Shown piece after piece: positions 4,695 through 23,027 of a stretch of DNA of 59,488 nt; the stretch's first letter is position 1; each line of letters starts with the position of its first letter. The notes beneath the pieces were generated by a model. It saw nothing but the letters and a program-made list of their open reading frames with translations. It had not been told where the DNA came from and ran no database searches. The stretch lies in the IMG/VR virus record IMGVR_UViG_3300032296_001520, positions 1-59,488 of that record, one strand, 5' to 3'. Source of the DNA: a virus. A program made the position numbers and the translations under genes.

Positions 4695-4925
4695 CTAAAT
4701 CCCCGTGTTCGCCGCCGCCTTTTTCGCGTCACCGCACTTGTCGATCGCGGTCACGGCGGGTGTGTCTGTGTTCAAGGCTACGGCAAGGGTGCAGACGCCC
4801 CAGCCAAAGCCATCGATCACACCTTTTCTGTGTCCTTCTCGATAGGCGAGGCCAGCTGCGACCACCGCCATCGCAAAGGCAAGCATCAGAGAGAAAATGG
4901 CGGACGTTTTCTTAGGGGCGGTCAT
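4695..4925 (-). CDS. Small membrane protein, 76 aa, possible frameshift
   Basis: MTAPKKTSAIFSLMLAFAMA onward: one N-terminal transmembrane helix (residues about 8-26), then a Gly-rich segment with further hydrophobic character. The zero-frame product ends AIDKCGDAKKAAANTGI. At 4719-4727 the run G AAA AAG allows a -1 slip into a 26-codon frame containing CPDC. GGAAG lies upstream and ATGA overlaps the DUF5131 stop. Confidence 0.65.
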   Translation of the reverse strand: MTAPKKTSAIFSLMLAFAMAVVAAGLAYREGHRKGVIDGFGWGVCTLAVALNTDTPAVTAIDKCGDAKKAAANTGI

Positions 4926-6307
4926 GATGATGCCACTTCCGGGAACTGACGCACCTGCAATCCTAGCGGGAACGCTTCAATGGCGTGGATGGCCTTTGAG
5001 CCGCCGCTGGAGAGTTGTTTGACGAAAACAGCGGTGCCTGTTTCGCGGCATTGATCGACAATGCTTTGCGCCCATTGATTCGCCATCGGGCGCGCGCCGG
5101 GGCCGCTTTCGGCTCCCACGATTACCCAATTGATAGGCTGCTGATCTGGCATGGAACCATCATCACAACAGCCTGTAAGGCTATTCACACAAAATCCCGG
5201 GTAATATTGAATTTCCCTCAAATCCAACGGCCCCAGCAATGGCTCGGCGCTGATGAAGCGGATGGCGGCGGGTGTCTCTAATAGGTTTTGAATGCGCTCG
5301 TCTGCACGTTCTTGATCCTCGACGCTGACGCCAAGCCATACCGCAGCCAGCGGCCACTGGAACGGCAGATCGATCACCCACTGTTTTCCAGTAATGATGT
5401 TCCGAATTTGAGTGTCGGAAACTGGGAAGTCTTTAGCGATGGAATAAGCGGCCTCACCCTTCGATGCACGGTCGCGGATCGCCGCTACCTGATCTCCAGA
5501 AAGCTTCGAATATCGGCGGAAACTCCCATGTCGCTTGCTGTCCTGCCAGTTGTCGGACTGATCACCCCATGCGAGGTTCGCGATGGCATTGTTGCCAGCG
5601 TTCCCGTCAAGGTGCCGCCCTTGACAATCGACGGTCGGCGGCGGACCGTCGAAGGCATTGAGCACGATGCGATGGACTAACATCCGCTCGCCGCGCCTCG
5701 GACCGCCCTCGCGGAACAACGGAACGCGAAGGTGGCCCGCGTCACCGGCGGTCGGGCTAAGACGTTTTCGCTTGCCACGCTTGTCGGAATAGACATGCCC
5801 GTGCGAGGACACGAGATATCCGGGGAACCCATCGACGTTGCGAAGTTCCTCCGGCCCATCTGGTGTGGCGTCGAGCGCTGCCATTGCGCGAGCAATGCGG
5901 AACGGCGTTTCAGGATTCCCAACATAGTCCCGCATCCGCTTTGGTCGCTTGGTCAGGATCATATGCGTGTGCTGTGGCGTGAGCGCGCAGACGGCAAACA
6001 CCTTGTCGATCCATTCATTTGGCACCGCGTCATGGAACAGGTCACCATGCGCGTTCCAGAATATCTTGCGCGGTTCCCGCCATTTGAGCGGCTGCATCAA
6101 TTGCGCTTCATTCAGGCGCACAGTGCCATTCCAGACAGGCCCGGCCTTGCTCTGTTGTGTCAGCCCGGCGCGGCTTGGGTGATTGCGCAGGCGCGTTCCT
6201 GCCAAGCGCATGGCATAGCAGTTGGTGCAGCCCGGTGAGATAACAGTGCAGCCGTTGACGGCATTGACCGTTGCGTCGGCCCATTCGATTTTGGTTTTAT
6301 CGGACAT
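4922..6307 (-). CDS. DUF5131 (phage Gp37/Gp68) protein with embedded HNH nuclease, 461 aa
   Basis: The N-terminal half has the family signature TKIEWADATVN, then a cysteine cluster at C20, C27 and C30 (ending CTNCYAMRL), which resembles radical SAM-type iron-sulfur ligands, then ILTKRPKRM. The second half resumes at about residue 316 with WPLAAVWLGVSVEDQERAD and FISAEPLLGP. Residues about 150-310 are foreign to the family: a NUMOD4-like segment, an HNH core and a C-terminal HTH. Usual members lack this and are about 250-300 residues long. The reaction of the DUF5131 family is not established. Start MSDKTK is chosen for the GAGGAAGGA site. Confidence 0.85.
   Translation of the reverse strand: MSDKTKIEWADATVNAVNGCTVISPGCTNCYAMRLAGTRLRNHPSRAGLTQQSKAGPVWNGTVRLNEAQLMQPLKWREPRKIFWNAHGDLFHDAVPNEWIDKVFAVCALTPQHTHMILTKRPKRMRDYVGNPETPFRIARAMAALDATPDGPEELRNVDGFPGYLVSSHGHVYSDKRGKRKRLSPTAGDAGHLRVPLFREGGPRRGERMLVHRIVLNAFDGPPPTVDCQGRHLDGNAGNNAIANLAWGDQSDNWQDSKRHGSFRRYSKLSGDQVAAIRDRASKGEAAYSIAKDFPVSDTQIRNIITGKQWVIDLPFQWPLAAVWLGVSVEDQERADERIQNLLETPAAIRFISAEPLLGPLDLREIQYYPGFCVNSLTGCCDDGSMPDQQPINWVIVGAESGPGARPMANQWAQSIVDQCRETGTAVFVKQLSSGGSKAIHAIEAFPLGLQVRQFPEVASS
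5378..5860 (-). mobile_element. In-frame NUMOD4-HNH-HTH endonuclease insertion
   Basis: Within the DUF5131 gene, residues about 150-310 encode a NUMOD4-like motif (NVDGFPGYLVSSHGHVYS), an HNH_3-like core (VHRIVLNAF, then RHLDGN, NN and NLAWG) and an HTH (LSGDQVAAIRDRA to TDQ-like SDTQIRNIITG). This is the domain order of free-standing or intron-borne HNH homing endonucleases. There are no stop codons, no intein splice residues and no separate start, so the nuclease appears translated as part of the host protein. Confidence 0.7.
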
Positions 6308-6488
6308 TTTGGGTTCCTTCCTCTGCCAGCGCCTTGACCTGATCGGGATAGTCACGGGCCACGCTTGCTGGCGTGTGATCGGTAAATGGGTCGCTTATTG
6401 TGAGATCAGCGCACAGAGCCTCGGCAGCGCGGCGGTGGGCTTGGGCGAATTTCTGTGACCAGCTAATGTGTTTGGCGCGGGCGGTCAT
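6297..6488 (-). CDS. Hypothetical protein, 63 aa
   Basis: MTARAKHISWSQKFAQAHRR start with GAAGGGA upstream. Helical; HISWSQKFAQAHRRAAEAL resembles the N-terminus of several small phage proteins without known role. Overlaps the DUF5131 start by 11 nt, implying co-expression. Confidence 0.65.
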   Translation of the reverse strand: MTARAKHISWSQKFAQAHRRAAEALCADLTISDPFTDHTPASVARDYPDQVKALAEEGTQNVR

Positions 6489-15646: not shown

Positions 15647-15704
15647 TTTCTAAACTCCCTTTTATGGCCTATCTCGTCAGTGGCGGGCAGCCAGCCCCTA
15701 CCAG

Positions 15705-15720
15705 ACGGGCTTGCGCCCGT
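15705..15720. other. Intergenic hairpin, copy 2
   Basis: Identical ACGGGC-TTGC-GCCCGT hairpin in the 82-base gap between the second and third leftward genes. The surrounding bases also resemble those of copy 1 (GGCCTATCTC upstream, GTTTCGATTG downstream), so a roughly 60-base intergenic element has been duplicated. Confidence 0.5.
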
Positions 15721-15728
15721 TTCGATTG

Positions 15729-16903: not shown

Positions 16904-16933
16904 TTTACATTTGGGTTGGAAGTGTCTTATGTT
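16904..16933 (+). promoter_or_regulatory. Candidate late promoter
   Basis: TTTACA (16904-16909), 18-nt spacer, TATGTT (16928-16933), 76 nt before the small terminase ATG. It agrees with five of six and four of six consensus bases. No better match was seen between the TGTAAC array and the terminase. Confidence 0.4.
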
Positions 16934-17009
16934 GTTCTGGAGCGGCGCTGTGGTCGATGTGATGTTCCCTTCCGTCTATTGGAGCGGTGCCGCTCAACCG
17001 GAGAAAAGA

Positions 17010-17594
17010 ATGGCTGACGACGAAGAGGCCGCTTTAGATTTGTGGGATCGCACTGTGATGGACGGTGTGAACGGCGACACGAAGATGACGCCGGACGCTA
17101 TTTTTGTGCGTGAGTATGTTCGCACGGGCGATGAGGTTTTGGCTGTGAGTCGTGCTGGATTGAATGACAGTCGCTATGCGTTGAGTGTGGTGGCGGAGTA
17201 TCATTTGGCGCGTCCTGAGATACAGGCTGCTATATTGATTCAGCGGGAGTTATTTAAGGAATTGGAGACATCGCGTCTTCGGTTGATGGGGGGATATTCG
17301 CGAGAGTTGATTTTGGATGATTTGGAGAAGTTGCATCAGAAGGCGAGTGATGACGGGGCGTATGCGCCGGCGATAAGTGCGAAGAAGGTACAGGCTCAGT
17401 TGCTGGGATTTTTGGATCAGACGGTGAATATTCGGCATTCGTTGGAGCCGCGAGAGATGACGACGGACGAGCTTCGTCGTCGGATTGCGGATTTGAGTGG
17501 GGTGGCGGGCGAGCTGCCGCCGCCGGAGGTTGATAGGCCGGCGATAATCGAGGCTGAGTATGTTGAGGTGAAGGGGAATGACGATGCGGTATAG
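17010..17594 (+). CDS. terS: Terminase small subunit, 194 aa
   Basis: Starts MADDEEAALDLWDRTVMDGV with GGAGAAAAG upstream; the longer frame from 16911 lacks a site. The region FVREYVRTGDEVLAVSRAGL to HLARPEIQAAI resembles the HTH of small terminases that bind the packaging site. The C-terminal ELRRRIADLSG and acidic tail fit the oligomerisation and large-subunit contact region. It precedes the large terminase in the usual place. Confidence 0.8.
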   Translation: MADDEEAALDLWDRTVMDGVNGDTKMTPDAIFVREYVRTGDEVLAVSRAGLNDSRYALSVVAEYHLARPEIQAAILIQRELFKELETSRLRLMGGYSRELILDDLEKLHQKASDDGAYAPAISAKKVQAQLLGFLDQTVNIRHSLEPREMTTDELRRRIADLSGVAGELPPPEVDRPAIIEAEYVEVKGNDDAV

Positions 17595-17832: not shown

Positions 17833-18089
17833 GTAAGCCGGATCTGAAGGTTGTCGGGGAGATTAGCCCACCGGATTACCGTGATGCGGTGAAGATGCTG
17901 CGTAATTTGGCGGATGACATTGAGGCGGGGGAATTTGGTGCGGTGAATTCGCTTGTGCTGGTTCGTTTTGGAGATAATGGCTTGCAGGTTCATGTAGGTG
18001 GGCGCGATTCGGACTTCGGGACTGCGATGTTGCTGTTGACGGCGGGTGTTAACAAGCTGACTGGGCCGCTGTTAGAGCACGGCGAGTGA
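17829..18089 (+). CDS. Hypothetical protein, 86 aa
   Basis: GTG start overlapping the previous stop (GTGTGA), reading MSKPDLKVVGEISPPDYRDA. Contains MLRNLADDIEAGEFGAVNSL and VLVRFGDNGLQVHVGG, a pattern I have seen in small phage proteins near terminases; function not known. Confidence 0.65.
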   Translation: MSKPDLKVVGEISPPDYRDAVKMLRNLADDIEAGEFGAVNSLVLVRFGDNGLQVHVGGRDSDFGTAMLLLTAGVNKLTGPLLEHGE

Positions 18090-20614
18090 GCGACGACGCT
18101 GGCACACTGAAGGCGCTGATGGAGGAGCTGCTGCTGCGGGAGGAGGCGCAGCAGTCTCTAGCGAAGTACATTGAATATGTGAGCGGGCTGAAGCCGCCGA
18201 AGCACATCGAATTGCTGTGTGAGAAGCTGGAAGCCGTAGCGGAAGGTAAGATTAAGCGCCTGATGATCAGTATGCCACCGGGGCATGCGAAGGCTCTGGC
18301 GCTCGATACACCGATACCGACGCCAGATGGCTGGCGCGTGATGGGCGAACTGCGTGTTGGTGATTATGTGTTTGATGAGAAGGGTGCGCCGACGCGGGTT
18401 GTTGGCGTCTCTGAGGTTTGGCGAGACCGTCCGGTGTATCGCGTGACGACGGCTGAGGGTGATGAGATTATTGCGGATGAGGCTCATGAGTGGACTGTGC
18501 GCCGCTGTCGCAAGCGCGATGTTTGGAAGACGTATGAAACAGGCGAATTGTATCGCAAGCAGGAGGAAGGGCAGCGGCCAGCGAAGGTCATGACTGCGGG
18601 AGCCCTTCAGCTGCAGCCGAAAGAATTTTTGATTCATCCGTATGTTTTGGGTTGCTGGCTTGGTGATGGAACATCGACGACGGCTCAATTTACGTCGATG
18701 GACGAAGAGATTATTGAACGCCTGCACGCGATTGAAGGTGGCGATTTAAGGATTGCGACGCAGCGCAGGGGCCGGGCGATTGCGTTTAGGATTGGTCCGA
18801 ACGGATTGATGGATCGGGAGGCGTGTCTGGCGACGCGGCTGCGTAAAATCGGCGTTATGGGTAATAAGCACATACCAGATACGTATTTCTGGGGGTCAGA
18901 AGAGCAGAGATGGGATTTGCTGCATGGCCTGATGGACACGGACGGGACGGTGAGCAAAGCGGGGCAGGCGACGTTTTATGCATCGAATGAGCGTCTAGCG
19001 CGCGATTTTCAGCAGTTAGCGTTTTCACTGGGGTTGAAACCTAAGCTGTCGTCGGGGCAGTCGAAGCTATATGGAGTTCAGCATAAAACGTGCTGGCGGG
19101 TTTCGTTTTACTCGGCGAATGCGGCTTGGTTGCCAAGGAAACGGAAGCGCGCGCGTGACGCCGATTACTATAAATATCGTCATCTGAAGTTTGAGCCCGC
19201 TGGATTTGCCGATACGGTGTGTATTGAGGTTGAGGCGGAGTCTCACCTGTTTTTGTGTGGGCGGTCGATGGTGCCGACGCATAACAGTTTCACGGCGTCG
19301 CAGCACTTTCCGGCGTGGTATTTGAGTAAATACGGGAAGAAGAACCTGATCTGCGCGACGCACACGCAGGAGCTGTCGGATAGCTTTGGTTTGAAGGTGC
19401 GTAATCTGATGAAATCGGACGAGCACAGGAAGGTTTTCCCGGAGGCTGGGATCAGTGCGGATAAGACGGCGGCTGGCGAGTGGATGACGCTGGATGATGG
19501 GTCGTATAAGGCGACCGCTGTGGGCGCGTCGGTAACGGGTCGTCGCGGTCACATGCTGATCGGGGATGATTTGCTGTCGGGGATTGAGGCGGCGGAGAGT
19601 GAGAGTCACCGCAAGAAACTCTGGGCATGGTATAACAGCGATTTCTATACGCGGCGTGTGGACGATGACACGGCGATCATCCTGATTGGGACGCGCTGGC
19701 ACTTGGGCGATCACTTCGGGATGCTGGATCAGGAAGAGCGGGACGGCACGGGCGAGAAGTGGGAGCGTGTAATCCTGCCAGCGCTGGCTTTGGAGAACGA
19801 TCCTCTGGGAAGAGAGCCGGGCGAGGCGTTGTGGGAGTCGCAGTTTAGCCGAGAGAACCTTGAGAAGATCCGGCAGCGCTCATCGACGACGGCGCGGATG
19901 TGGTCGTCGTTGTATCAGCAGAACCCGGTGGTGGATTCGGGCGGCATTATTGACGGAACGTGGTTTAAGTGGTGGCGGCAGCCTGAGCCGCCGAAAATCC
20001 AGTATGTCATTCAGGCATGGGATACGGCGCTGACGGCGAATAAAACTTCCGCATATAGCGCGAGCACGACGTGGGGCGTGTTTGAGGACGATAACGGAAT
20101 TCCGAATATCATATTGCTATCGGCATGGCGGGATCGGGCTGAATGGCCAGTGCTGCGGCGGATGGTGCAGCGAATGGCGAATGATTACCGAGACGATAAC
20201 TATAAGCTGCCGATTAAGCCGAAGTCTGGGCGCAAGCCGGATACGATTTTGGTAGAGGCTAAGGCGAACGGGCAGATGCTGATCTTGGATCTCGCGAGGG
20301 CGGGGATTGTGGCGACGCCGTTTAACCCAGATAAGCACGGCGATAAGATTGCGCGCGTTCGGTTAGTCACGGATTTGATTGAGAACGGGCGGGTATGGCT
20401 TCCGGCAGTAGGCCCGACGTATCAGCAGTTGCGGAAATGGGCTGAGGAATTTTTGCAGCAGTGCGTGCAGTTCCCGGCTGCGGATTCGCGTGACTGGGTG
20501 GACACGATGACGATGGCGCTGTTGAGGATTAAACAGTCGGGCTGGGTCTCGAATACGGAAAACCCGTATGAGGAGGTTTATGATACGCCAAGAGAGGCTG
20601 TCGCGTTTTATTGA
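18086..20614 (+). CDS. terL: Terminase large subunit precursor with intein, 842 aa
   Basis: ATPase and nuclease that packages DNA through the portal. The N-extein ends in Walker A MPPGHAK (residues 63-69). An intein (70-400) interrupts it. The C-extein starts S401 FTASQ and continues with Walker B-type HMLIGDDLLSG, RWHLGDHFG, and a C-terminal RNase H-like nuclease (QAWDTALTANKTSAYS and DTILVEAKANGQ). Without the intein the protein would be 511 residues, normal for the family. GTG start with GTGA overlap. Packaging should need splicing, since Walker A is split. Confidence 0.95.
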   Translation: MSDDAGTLKALMEELLLREEAQQSLAKYIEYVSGLKPPKHIELLCEKLEAVAEGKIKRLMISMPPGHAKALALDTPIPTPDGWRVMGELRVGDYVFDEKGAPTRVVGVSEVWRDRPVYRVTTAEGDEIIADEAHEWTVRRCRKRDVWKTYETGELYRKQEEGQRPAKVMTAGALQLQPKEFLIHPYVLGCWLGDGTSTTAQFTSMDEEIIERLHAIEGGDLRIATQRRGRAIAFRIGPNGLMDREACLATRLRKIGVMGNKHIPDTYFWGSEEQRWDLLHGLMDTDGTVSKAGQATFYASNERLARDFQQLAFSLGLKPKLSSGQSKLYGVQHKTCWRVSFYSANAAWLPRKRKRARDADYYKYRHLKFEPAGFADTVCIEVEAESHLFLCGRSMVPTHNSFTASQHFPAWYLSKYGKKNLICATHTQELSDSFGLKVRNLMKSDEHRKVFPEAGISADKTAAGEWMTLDDGSYKATAVGASVTGRRGHMLIGDDLLSGIEAAESESHRKKLWAWYNSDFYTRRVDDDTAIILIGTRWHLGDHFGMLDQEERDGTGEKWERVILPALALENDPLGREPGEALWESQFSRENLEKIRQRSSTTARMWSSLYQQNPVVDSGGIIDGTWFKWWRQPEPPKIQYVIQAWDTALTANKTSAYSASTTWGVFEDDNGIPNIILLSAWRDRAEWPVLRRMVQRMANDYRDDNYKLPIKPKSGRKPDTILVEAKANGQMLILDLARAGIVATPFNPDKHGDKIARVRLVTDLIENGRVWLPAVGPTYQQLRKWAEEFLQQCVQFPAADSRDWVDTMTMALLRIKQSGWVSNTENPYEEVYDTPREAVAFY
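18293..19285 (+). mobile_element. Class 3-type intein with LAGLIDADG endonuclease, 331 aa
   Basis: Inserted between Lys69 and Ser401 of the terminase Walker A. It begins ALALDTPIPTPDGW, with Ala rather than Cys or Ser first. Block B reads AHEWTV (H134, W136), block F TVCIEVE (C379) and the end PTHN (T398, N400). The W, C and T at these block positions form the WCT signature of class 3 inteins, in which the block F Cys starts splicing. Two LAGLIDADG motifs, YVLGCWLGDG (186-195) and LLHGLMDTDG (278-287), indicate a homing endonuclease. Confidence 0.9.
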
Positions 20615-20645: not shown

Positions 20646-23027
20646 ATGGCTAGAAAACCAACCACGCTTGAAGACACGCTTCGACCAGCCTTTGAAGGCA
20701 TTGGCGGCGTTGATGTTGACATGCCAAGCGAGGGTATTGAGTTTGAACTGGACGAGGCAGAGCCGCAGATGGTGGACGGCGCTGAGGTTGTGGAGACCGA
20801 AGACGGCGGCGTTGAAATTAATTTCGATCCAGACACCGACCTGCCAGAAGAACCGGAGTTCTGTGCGAATCTGGCGCTCTACATGGACGATATGGACTTG
20901 AATTCGCTGGCCGAGATGTTGCTCAGTGGCGTTGAAGAGGATCGCCAGTCGCGTAGTGACTGGGAAGCAACGATGTCTGAAGGCATTAAGTTAATGGGCC
21001 TGAAGATGGAGGATCGGCAGACGCCGTTTAAGGGCGCTTGCGGTGTATTTGACCCACTCTTGGCGGAGGCTGTGGTGCGCTGGCAGGCGGTGGCTTGTGG
21101 GGAGCTATTGCCAGCCGGCGGCCCGGTTAAAACGCAGATTGTTGGGGTTGCGAATGAGCAGTTGGAGGCTCAGGCGTCGCGCGTTCAGCAGTTTATGAAC
21201 CTCTATTTGACGGATCTCGCCCCAGAATTCTATGAAGAATTCGACCAGATGCTATTATGGCTGCCTCTGGTGGGTTCGACGTTCAAGAAGACGTATCAGG
21301 ATCGCCTACTGGGCCGCCCGGTGAGTCGGTTTGTGCTCTCGGATAACTTTATCGTGGCCTATAACACGACGGATTTAACGACTTCGCCGCGCTTCTGCCA
21401 CATTACGCCAATGACGCGCCGCAATTTCAGGCTTGCTCAGCTGGCTGGCGTGTATCGCGACATTGATATTGGTGACCCGCAGGGGGATGATGGCAGCCAG
21501 ACTCCGATACAGGCGGAAATTGATGGGGTGCAGGGTGTTGAACCGGGCGCAGAGGGAACTGAAGAGTATCGCATTTACGAAGTCTATGCGGATTTAAATT
21601 TAGTTGGCTTTGAGAATGAAAATGGCATTCCTCTGCCGTATATTGTTTCGATTGAAGAGGGCAGCCGGAAGGTTCTGTCGATTTACCGGAACTATCAAGA
21701 GGACGATATCACGTTTCAGCGTGAGGATTGCTTCACCCACTATAAGTTTATTCCCGGCTTGGGCTTCTATGGTCTTGGCTATGCTCACTTGCTGGGCAAT
21801 TCAGCAAAAACCGCGACGGCAATTCGTCGCCAGCTGATTGATGCTGGCACACTGAATAACTTTCCGGGCGGCTTGCGCGTCAAAGGCATGAAGATCGAGG
21901 ACAATAATATTGGGATTGGCCCGACTGAGTTCCGCGAGATTGATACGGGCGGCCTGCCGATTCAGAACGCGATCATGACGATGCCCTATAAAGAGCCGTC
22001 TGGTGTAGCTCTTTCATTGCTGAAGGAAACTTATGAGAGTGCGCGCAATCTTGCTAACACGGCAGAGATTGCCGTGGGTGAAGGCCGACAGGATGCGCCA
22101 GTCGGAACGACTGTTGCTCTTATAGAAGCGGCGACCAGACTGCAATCTGCCACGCTTAAGAGGGTTCGCAAGGCGTTTAGCCGCGAGCTAAAAAAGATTG
22201 CCAATCTGTTTGGCAGATATCTCCCTAATGAGCCATATCCGTTTCCGGTTCGCGGCGGAATGTCCGCTATCATGCGGCAGGACTTCGAGAATAACATCGA
22301 TGTTATCCCGGTCAGCGATCCTAATGTTTCGTCTTCGGCTCAGCGCATGATGCGGGCGGAAGCCCTTCTTCGCTTCGCCACGCAGCAGCCTGACCAGCAT
22401 AATATCCGCGAAGCATATAAGCAGATGTATGTTGAGATGGGTATTCCGCAGGAAAAGATTGAACTCCTCATTCGGCCTGAAGAGCGGCGCGCACAGCCGC
22501 TGGACCCTCTAACGGAGAACCAGAACGCGATCATGGGAATGCCTTTGGTGGCTGGCGCATATCAGGATCACGACGCGCATATCGCCTCACACGCCCCGAT
22601 TGCAGCTGAAAACCCATCCCTTCAGGCGCATATCAATGAGCACTTGGCGTTAAAAATGCGAGCTCAGGTAGAGCAGATTATTGGGCAGCCTCTTCCGCCT
22701 CCGGGCCAGCCATTGCCACCGCAGATTGAAAATCAGATTGCGGTCATGGTTGCACAGGCGATGCAGCAGCTTGCTCCGCTGTATAAGCCGCAGGAGCAGC
22801 CAGATCCATATCTTGAGATCGAGCAAGCGAAGATAGCTCAGAAGCAGGAGAAGGCTCAGACCGACGCAGAGTCGAGAGAGCGCGTTGCTGAAATCACAGC
22901 GGCGGCTGACATGGCTGATACTGCAGCTCGAGAACGGACGGCAACGCTTCGAGTATTTGCCGATCTGGCAGATAATCCTGCACCACCTGAACCATACTCA
23001 ATTGAATTTATTGGAGGTCAACAATGA
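20646..23027 (+). CDS. Portal protein, 793 aa
   Basis: Long portal of podovirus type following the large terminase, with AGGAAG before ATG. An acidic N-terminal 100 residues precede the core (TPFKGACGVFDPLLAEAVVR, SRFVLSDNFIVAYNTTDLT, and GLGFYGLGYAHLLGNSAKTA, the last including the membrane-like helix region). The C-terminal 100 residues are Gln/Glu-rich and helical, like barrel extensions. It forms the ring through which DNA enters and leaves the head. The identification relies on order, length and pattern. Confidence 0.85.
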   Translation: MARKPTTLEDTLRPAFEGIGGVDVDMPSEGIEFELDEAEPQMVDGAEVVETEDGGVEINFDPDTDLPEEPEFCANLALYMDDMDLNSLAEMLLSGVEEDRQSRSDWEATMSEGIKLMGLKMEDRQTPFKGACGVFDPLLAEAVVRWQAVACGELLPAGGPVKTQIVGVANEQLEAQASRVQQFMNLYLTDLAPEFYEEFDQMLLWLPLVGSTFKKTYQDRLLGRPVSRFVLSDNFIVAYNTTDLTTSPRFCHITPMTRRNFRLAQLAGVYRDIDIGDPQGDDGSQTPIQAEIDGVQGVEPGAEGTEEYRIYEVYADLNLVGFENENGIPLPYIVSIEEGSRKVLSIYRNYQEDDITFQREDCFTHYKFIPGLGFYGLGYAHLLGNSAKTATAIRRQLIDAGTLNNFPGGLRVKGMKIEDNNIGIGPTEFREIDTGGLPIQNAIMTMPYKEPSGVALSLLKETYESARNLANTAEIAVGEGRQDAPVGTTVALIEAATRLQSATLKRVRKAFSRELKKIANLFGRYLPNEPYPFPVRGGMSAIMRQDFENNIDVIPVSDPNVSSSAQRMMRAEALLRFATQQPDQHNIREAYKQMYVEMGIPQEKIELLIRPEERRAQPLDPLTENQNAIMGMPLVAGAYQDHDAHIASHAPIAAENPSLQAHINEHLALKMRAQVEQIIGQPLPPPGQPLPPQIENQIAVMVAQAMQQLAPLYKPQEQPDPYLEIEQAKIAQKQEKAQTDAESRERVAEITAAADMADTAARERTATLRVFADLADNPAPPEPYSIEFIGGQQ

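Follow-up and report, generated by a model that had tools for sequence, protein, structure and literature searches.

We judge it very likely (a probability of about 0.93) that the window, by which we mean the whole 59,488-nucleotide stretch of the IMG/VR record IMGVR_UViG_3300032296_001520, encodes a mobile class 3 intein of full length that interrupts the P-loop of the large terminase of a tailed phage. The element spans positions 18293 to 19285 of the plus strand and comprises 331 residues, A1 to N331 (precursor residues 70 to 400), inserted in frame between Lys69 and Ser401 inside the Walker A motif (MPPGHAK-S; hyphens of this kind mark insertion points), which agrees to the nucleotide with the original prediction that an intein splits this motif of the terminase. 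On sequence grounds the insert is an intein, as indicated by its in-frame insertion, by the existence of empty alleles, and by its terminal HN followed by a +1 Ser (HN-S). Of the generic intein models, PF14890 gave no match in the window's record and TIGR01445 remained under its cut-off.

The host gene, terL (18086 to 20614, plus strand, stop codon included), opens with a GTG start and encodes a precursor of 842 residues, the two ends of which match large terminase subunits (phrog_38, E 2.6e-95; TIGR01630, above its cut-off; Terminase_6C PF17289, E 3.4e-7). The N-extein (18086 to 18292, plus strand; 69 residues) ends in MISMPPGHAK, with the N-terminal part of Walker A, PPGHAK, at 18275 to 18292, and is joined directly to the C-extein in intein-free relatives. 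The C-extein (19286 to 20611, plus strand; 442 residues) carries the remaining ATPase and the RNase H-like nuclease, and its first residue, Ser401, is both the +1 nucleophile and the Walker A Ser. Directly 3' of terL lies a portal protein gene (20646 to 23027, plus strand; phrog_1216, E 2.1e-31; SU10_portal below cut-off), and upstream, on the grounds of position only and with no family match, a possible small terminase subunit of 227 residues (16911 to 17594, plus strand). Since a nucleotide search of phages with the terL region returned no match, the virus has no close isolate; a second contig (L001/L015) carries a copy identical to the window's terL.

Two further features of the window are recorded here. 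A type II hammerhead ribozyme (15663 to 15727, minus strand; RF02276, 39.1 bits against a cut-off of 37) sits between minus-strand genes and the terminase genes. In addition, a DUF5131 gene (4922 to 6355, minus strand) contains an in-frame NUMOD4/HNH_3 endonuclease at about residues 170 to 270, between its TKRPxRM and WLGVSVEDQ motifs; a homologue of this gene (L187) lacks the endonuclease and has a different linker at that place, and inspection by eye revealed no splicing blocks of an intein in the insertion.

Class 3 inteins are defined by the absence of a nucleophile at residue 1 together with Trp at B:12, Cys at F:4 and Thr at G:5 (PMC5222942, PMC3196547). In the window's intein residue 1 is Ala, so that no Cys, Ser or Thr stands there, and in an alignment with phage inteins and with class 3 inteins of solved structure W67 falls at B:12, C310 at F:4 and T329 at G:5 (W136, C379 and T398 of the precursor). 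By the same alignment block A (ALALDTPIPTPDGWRV) occupies 18293 to 18340; block B, with D62, H65 and W67, lies at 18452 to 18508 (Trp codon 18491 to 18493); and blocks F and G, TVCIEVEAESHLFLCGRSMVPTHN, lie at 19214 to 19285, including C310 (19220 to 19222), T329 (19277 to 19279), H330 and N331, all on the plus strand. Block B reads DxxH (D62, H65), or DxxHxW with W67, and not TxxH. Conservation is strict at these positions, A1, A61, D62, H65, W67, C310 and N331 being invariant in 38 homologues and T329 being Thr in 37 of them.

The block comparison, for which Gaia, Eureka, YungMoney and two solved mycobacterial DnaB inteins served as references, lined W, C and T up with those of class 3 inteins; the columns are shared with Gaia, Eureka, MIZ5, YungMoney and other named phage inteins. 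Among solved structures the top phmmer matches were 6RIX (M. chimaera DnaB intein, MchDnaB1; E 7.2e-22) and 6BS8 (M. smegmatis DnaBi1; E 2.5e-21), both of class 3, whereas the class 1 gp41-1 wild type matched far more weakly (E 0.0027). In the intein tree the window's intein is nested among W-C-T inteins, a weak test because the tree includes only one class 1 row, on a long branch. By the sequence definition of the class the assignment is supported, and the W-C-T signature that had been proposed earlier is present in full, together with A1 and DxxH.

An AlphaFold2 model built from a 38-row alignment (mean pLDDT 91, pTM 0.90) shows a predicted Hint domain with a PI-SceI-type LAGLIDADG nuclease. 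In a Foldseek search against the PDB the first hit was PI-SceI (E 2.5e-18, query TM 0.70), the VMA intein, which has the same domain order and fold of Hint and LAGLIDADG parts and itself splices by the class 1 route with Cys1. 6RIX and 6BS8 were matched with target TM-scores of 0.81 to 0.87, as expected for a Hint domain carrying a LAGLIDADG insert, and I-DmoI matched the nuclease part of the model. Both LAGLIDADG motifs of the original prediction were found with their Asp intact: the first, PYVLGCWLGDG (D125), at 18638 to 18670, and the second, LLHGLMDTDG (D215, D217), at 18917 to 18946 (PF14528, E 9.8e-7, above cut-off), both on the plus strand. In the comparison with L002, the only other intein-bearing terminase among the loci described below, the nuclease region (residues 110 to 285) gave a pN of 0.285 and a pS of 0.794, and pN was 0.127 for residues 1 to 100 and 0.079 for the last 46 residues (286 to 331); dS is saturated in this comparison and the pN/pS ratios are only indicative. 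These values suggest constraint throughout the intein, weakest in the nuclease region, and would fit a predicted nuclease whose activity persists or was lost only recently.

The distribution of the element was analysed in 80 terminase loci from viral contigs, retrieved with the C-extein as query, from which L015 (identical to the window and on the same contig as L001) and L027 (ending before the site) were left out. The remaining 78 loci, 75-94% identical, span the insertion site, and 77 of them, some being near-duplicates of one another, read an uninterrupted MISMPPGHA/GKS or a close variant; the exception is L002, whose terminase is 79% identical. The nearest terminases (93-94%, L016 to L021) are without the insert. 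Because homologous alleles without the insert exist, joined exactly at K-S, the insert is not a product of chance. In the C-extein tree the three intein-bearing rows require three state changes and the window's allele is nested inside an empty group (11-row set); judged from these sequences, intein presence among the terminases is sporadic.

The closest relatives of the intein itself are few, with L002 at 72% and L003 at 50% identity in the nearest clade. More widely, relatives of the intein occur in 750 phage records, all at below 60% identity, and in 562 of these records the match covers at least 80% of its length. Most of the roughly 75 intein loci retrieved from contigs of viruses and prokaryotes split a GK-S or GK-T loop, in terminases and in other P-loop proteins. 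The intein has a GC content of 0.55 and a GC3 of 0.59, the exteins have 0.57-0.58 and 0.71-0.75 respectively, a modest gap that is in keeping with, and no proof of, a separate history of the intein. As for a co-conversion tract at the insertion site, identity near the junction was not clearly above that elsewhere.

Among the fetched inteins, L177 (2501 to 3493) is of class 3 type and sits at GTGK-S on a contig attributed to an archaeal MAG, of Methanobrevibacter. Those of L168, L172, L173 and L184 are class 3 mini-inteins that lack a nuclease and have 135-155 residues; they lie mostly at P-loop sites and come from both viral and prokaryotic contigs. In L117, L118, L119, L120 and L168 the penultimate residue of the W-C-T intein is not His but Arg or Cys (TRN, TCN).

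We propose the following mechanism. After translation the Hint domain would fold, and Cys310 (F:4), helped by His65 and Thr329, would attack the Lys69-Ala70 bond without the use of a residue-1 nucleophile; a catalytic triad of Cys F:4, His65 and Thr has been described for MchDnaB1 (PMC7664689). The acyl group (the N-extein) would then be transferred to Ser401 (+1), and cyclisation of Asn331 would release the intein, so that MPPGHAK is rejoined to S in a Walker A loop able to bind ATP; the predicted junction peptide of the spliced TerL is MPPGHAKSFTASQHFPAW. As the unspliced precursor has 331 residues between the Lys and the Ser of Walker A, it is unlikely to hydrolyse ATP, and to this extent the dependence on splicing that was originally proposed for packaging is upheld for the TerL ATPase by reasoning from the structure of the gene. 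At co-infection the LAGLIDADG domain would cut uninterrupted terL alleles, into which repair would then copy the intein; endonuclease activity has been demonstrated for two other TerL inteins (PMC5050341). We infer splicing, its chemistry, the nuclease activity and the inactivity of the precursor, and we view the intein primarily as a selfish element: the site it occupies is among the most conserved of the gene, which makes its loss difficult and its re-homing easy.

As residue 1 is not a nucleophile, Ser+1 might attack the N-junction directly, as in class 2 splicing, leaving Cys310 dispensable, and for inteins with a class 3 signature both routes are conceivable in principle until a Cys F:4 mutant has been examined (PMC5222942). 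We regard this as highly improbable here: the complete W-C-T set and DxxH are conserved in the homologues, class 2 was known as of 2011 only from KlbA genes (PMC3196547), and Cys F:4 was required in all three class 3 inteins assayed (PMC5222942). That the gene is non-functional, with no splicing and a phage that is defective or dependent on another terminase, is hardly credible; one dead class 3 intein has been documented, Arth_1007, which lacks Cys F:4 (PMC3196547), but in the window the catalytic residues are all present, the ORF is intact across 842 codons, and an identical copy occurs in the second contig. A decayed intein, which still splices while its LAGLIDADG domain no longer cuts and which is fixed and vertically inherited, is unlikely and yet deserves serious weight, given that the nuclease has been lost in several homologues (the mini-inteins L168, L173 and L184, 135-155 aa) and that changes accumulate faster in the nuclease region than in the splicing region. 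Against decay, both motif Asp are retained, the frame is undamaged and the nuclease region is under clear constraint, and presence or absence among terminases 75-94% identical implies gain or loss.

The intein might also be conditional, oxidation or temperature restraining its splicing and timing packaging. Its essential nucleophile is a Cys, and H2O2 inhibits both the splicing of Msm DnaBi1 (PMC6195587) and the N-cleavage of MchDnaB1 (PMC7664689), two class 3 inteins. In Msm DnaBi1 splicing is paused by a Cys48-Cys118 disulfide (PMC6195587), but the window's intein has Val48 in place of the Cys that pairs with the block F Cys, and nothing we found bears on temperature; the tie of packaging to redox state or temperature suggested originally is not supported. 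Cys48 is found in 18 of the 38 homologues, whereas the window's clade has Val48, often with Cys72 and Cys322; these two extra Cys, a lead towards a conditional intein, occur together in 7 of the 38, all with Val at 48. The clade might have swapped the Cys48-type disulfide for this other pair, with oxidation pausing splicing and packaging, which we consider very improbable. Their co-occurrence tracks one clade and is not independent, and five phage TerL inteins assayed spliced fast without a cue (PMC5050341). Conditional splicing in general appears quite improbable.

The window's intein adds a new sequence to an element that is common in phages, and class 3 inteins of phage TerL are already published: mycobacteriophage TerL inteins, including class 3 inteins with proven splicing, and the K-T Walker A site were reported in 2016 (PMC5050341, Kelley et al.), and the phiCbK TerL intein at PPGHAK-S was described in 2012 (PMC3556154). 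If it splices, it adds an environmental case to the class 3 inteins that occupy the packaging ATPase's most conserved loop, and its close intein-free alleles (93-94% identical C-exteins) would allow a direct test of whether such a P-loop intein homes from one natural allele to another; no new principle is opened by it.

Compared with known systems, the intein of Eureka gp8 resembles the window's in its TerL host, its insertion after GK before Thr, its W-C-T in the same columns and its two LAGLIDADG motifs; it differs in being 36% identical, in its actinobacterial phage and in its +1 Thr, and judging from the K-T site we infer that it is TerL1-a of PMC5050341. The TerL intein of Gordonia phage YungMoney, which belongs to a neighbouring clade of the intein tree, shares the GK-S P-loop, A1, HEW, CIEV and two LAGLIDADG motifs, but has a penultimate Arg (TRN) and Cys at 48, and the whole TerL is only about 31% identical. 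Gaia TerL1-e, among the best isolate matches (36% identity over the full length), has a class 3 motif and a nuclease and is known to splice, but is inserted at Walker B and not Walker A (PMC5050341). The solved inteins 6RIX (MchDnaB1) and 6BS8 (Msm DnaBi1) have A1, H65 and W67 at the same numbers, Cys F:4 and THN, and 6BS8 also has D62 at the same number; unlike the window's intein, they are mini-inteins without a nuclease, have Cys48 instead of Val and reside in a helicase. The site itself, PPGHAK-S, is identical in the TerL inteins of phiCbK and CcrColossus, which likewise have the block F Cys and no residue-1 nucleophile, but have Pro1, Phe for the block B Trp, Val for Thr and no LAGLIDADG catalytic motif. 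Together with that of Mesorhizobium phage Cp1R7A-A1 (L007, CcrColossus; L008, phiCbK; L013, Cp1R7A-A1), these inteins begin with Pro or Asp, share the same substitutions and lack of nuclease motifs, and keep the block F Cys, and that of Brevundimonas phage Bajun (L195) is similar; by their residues the three appear to be class 3-like inteins that lack W and T, and in the intein tree they stand apart on a long branch.
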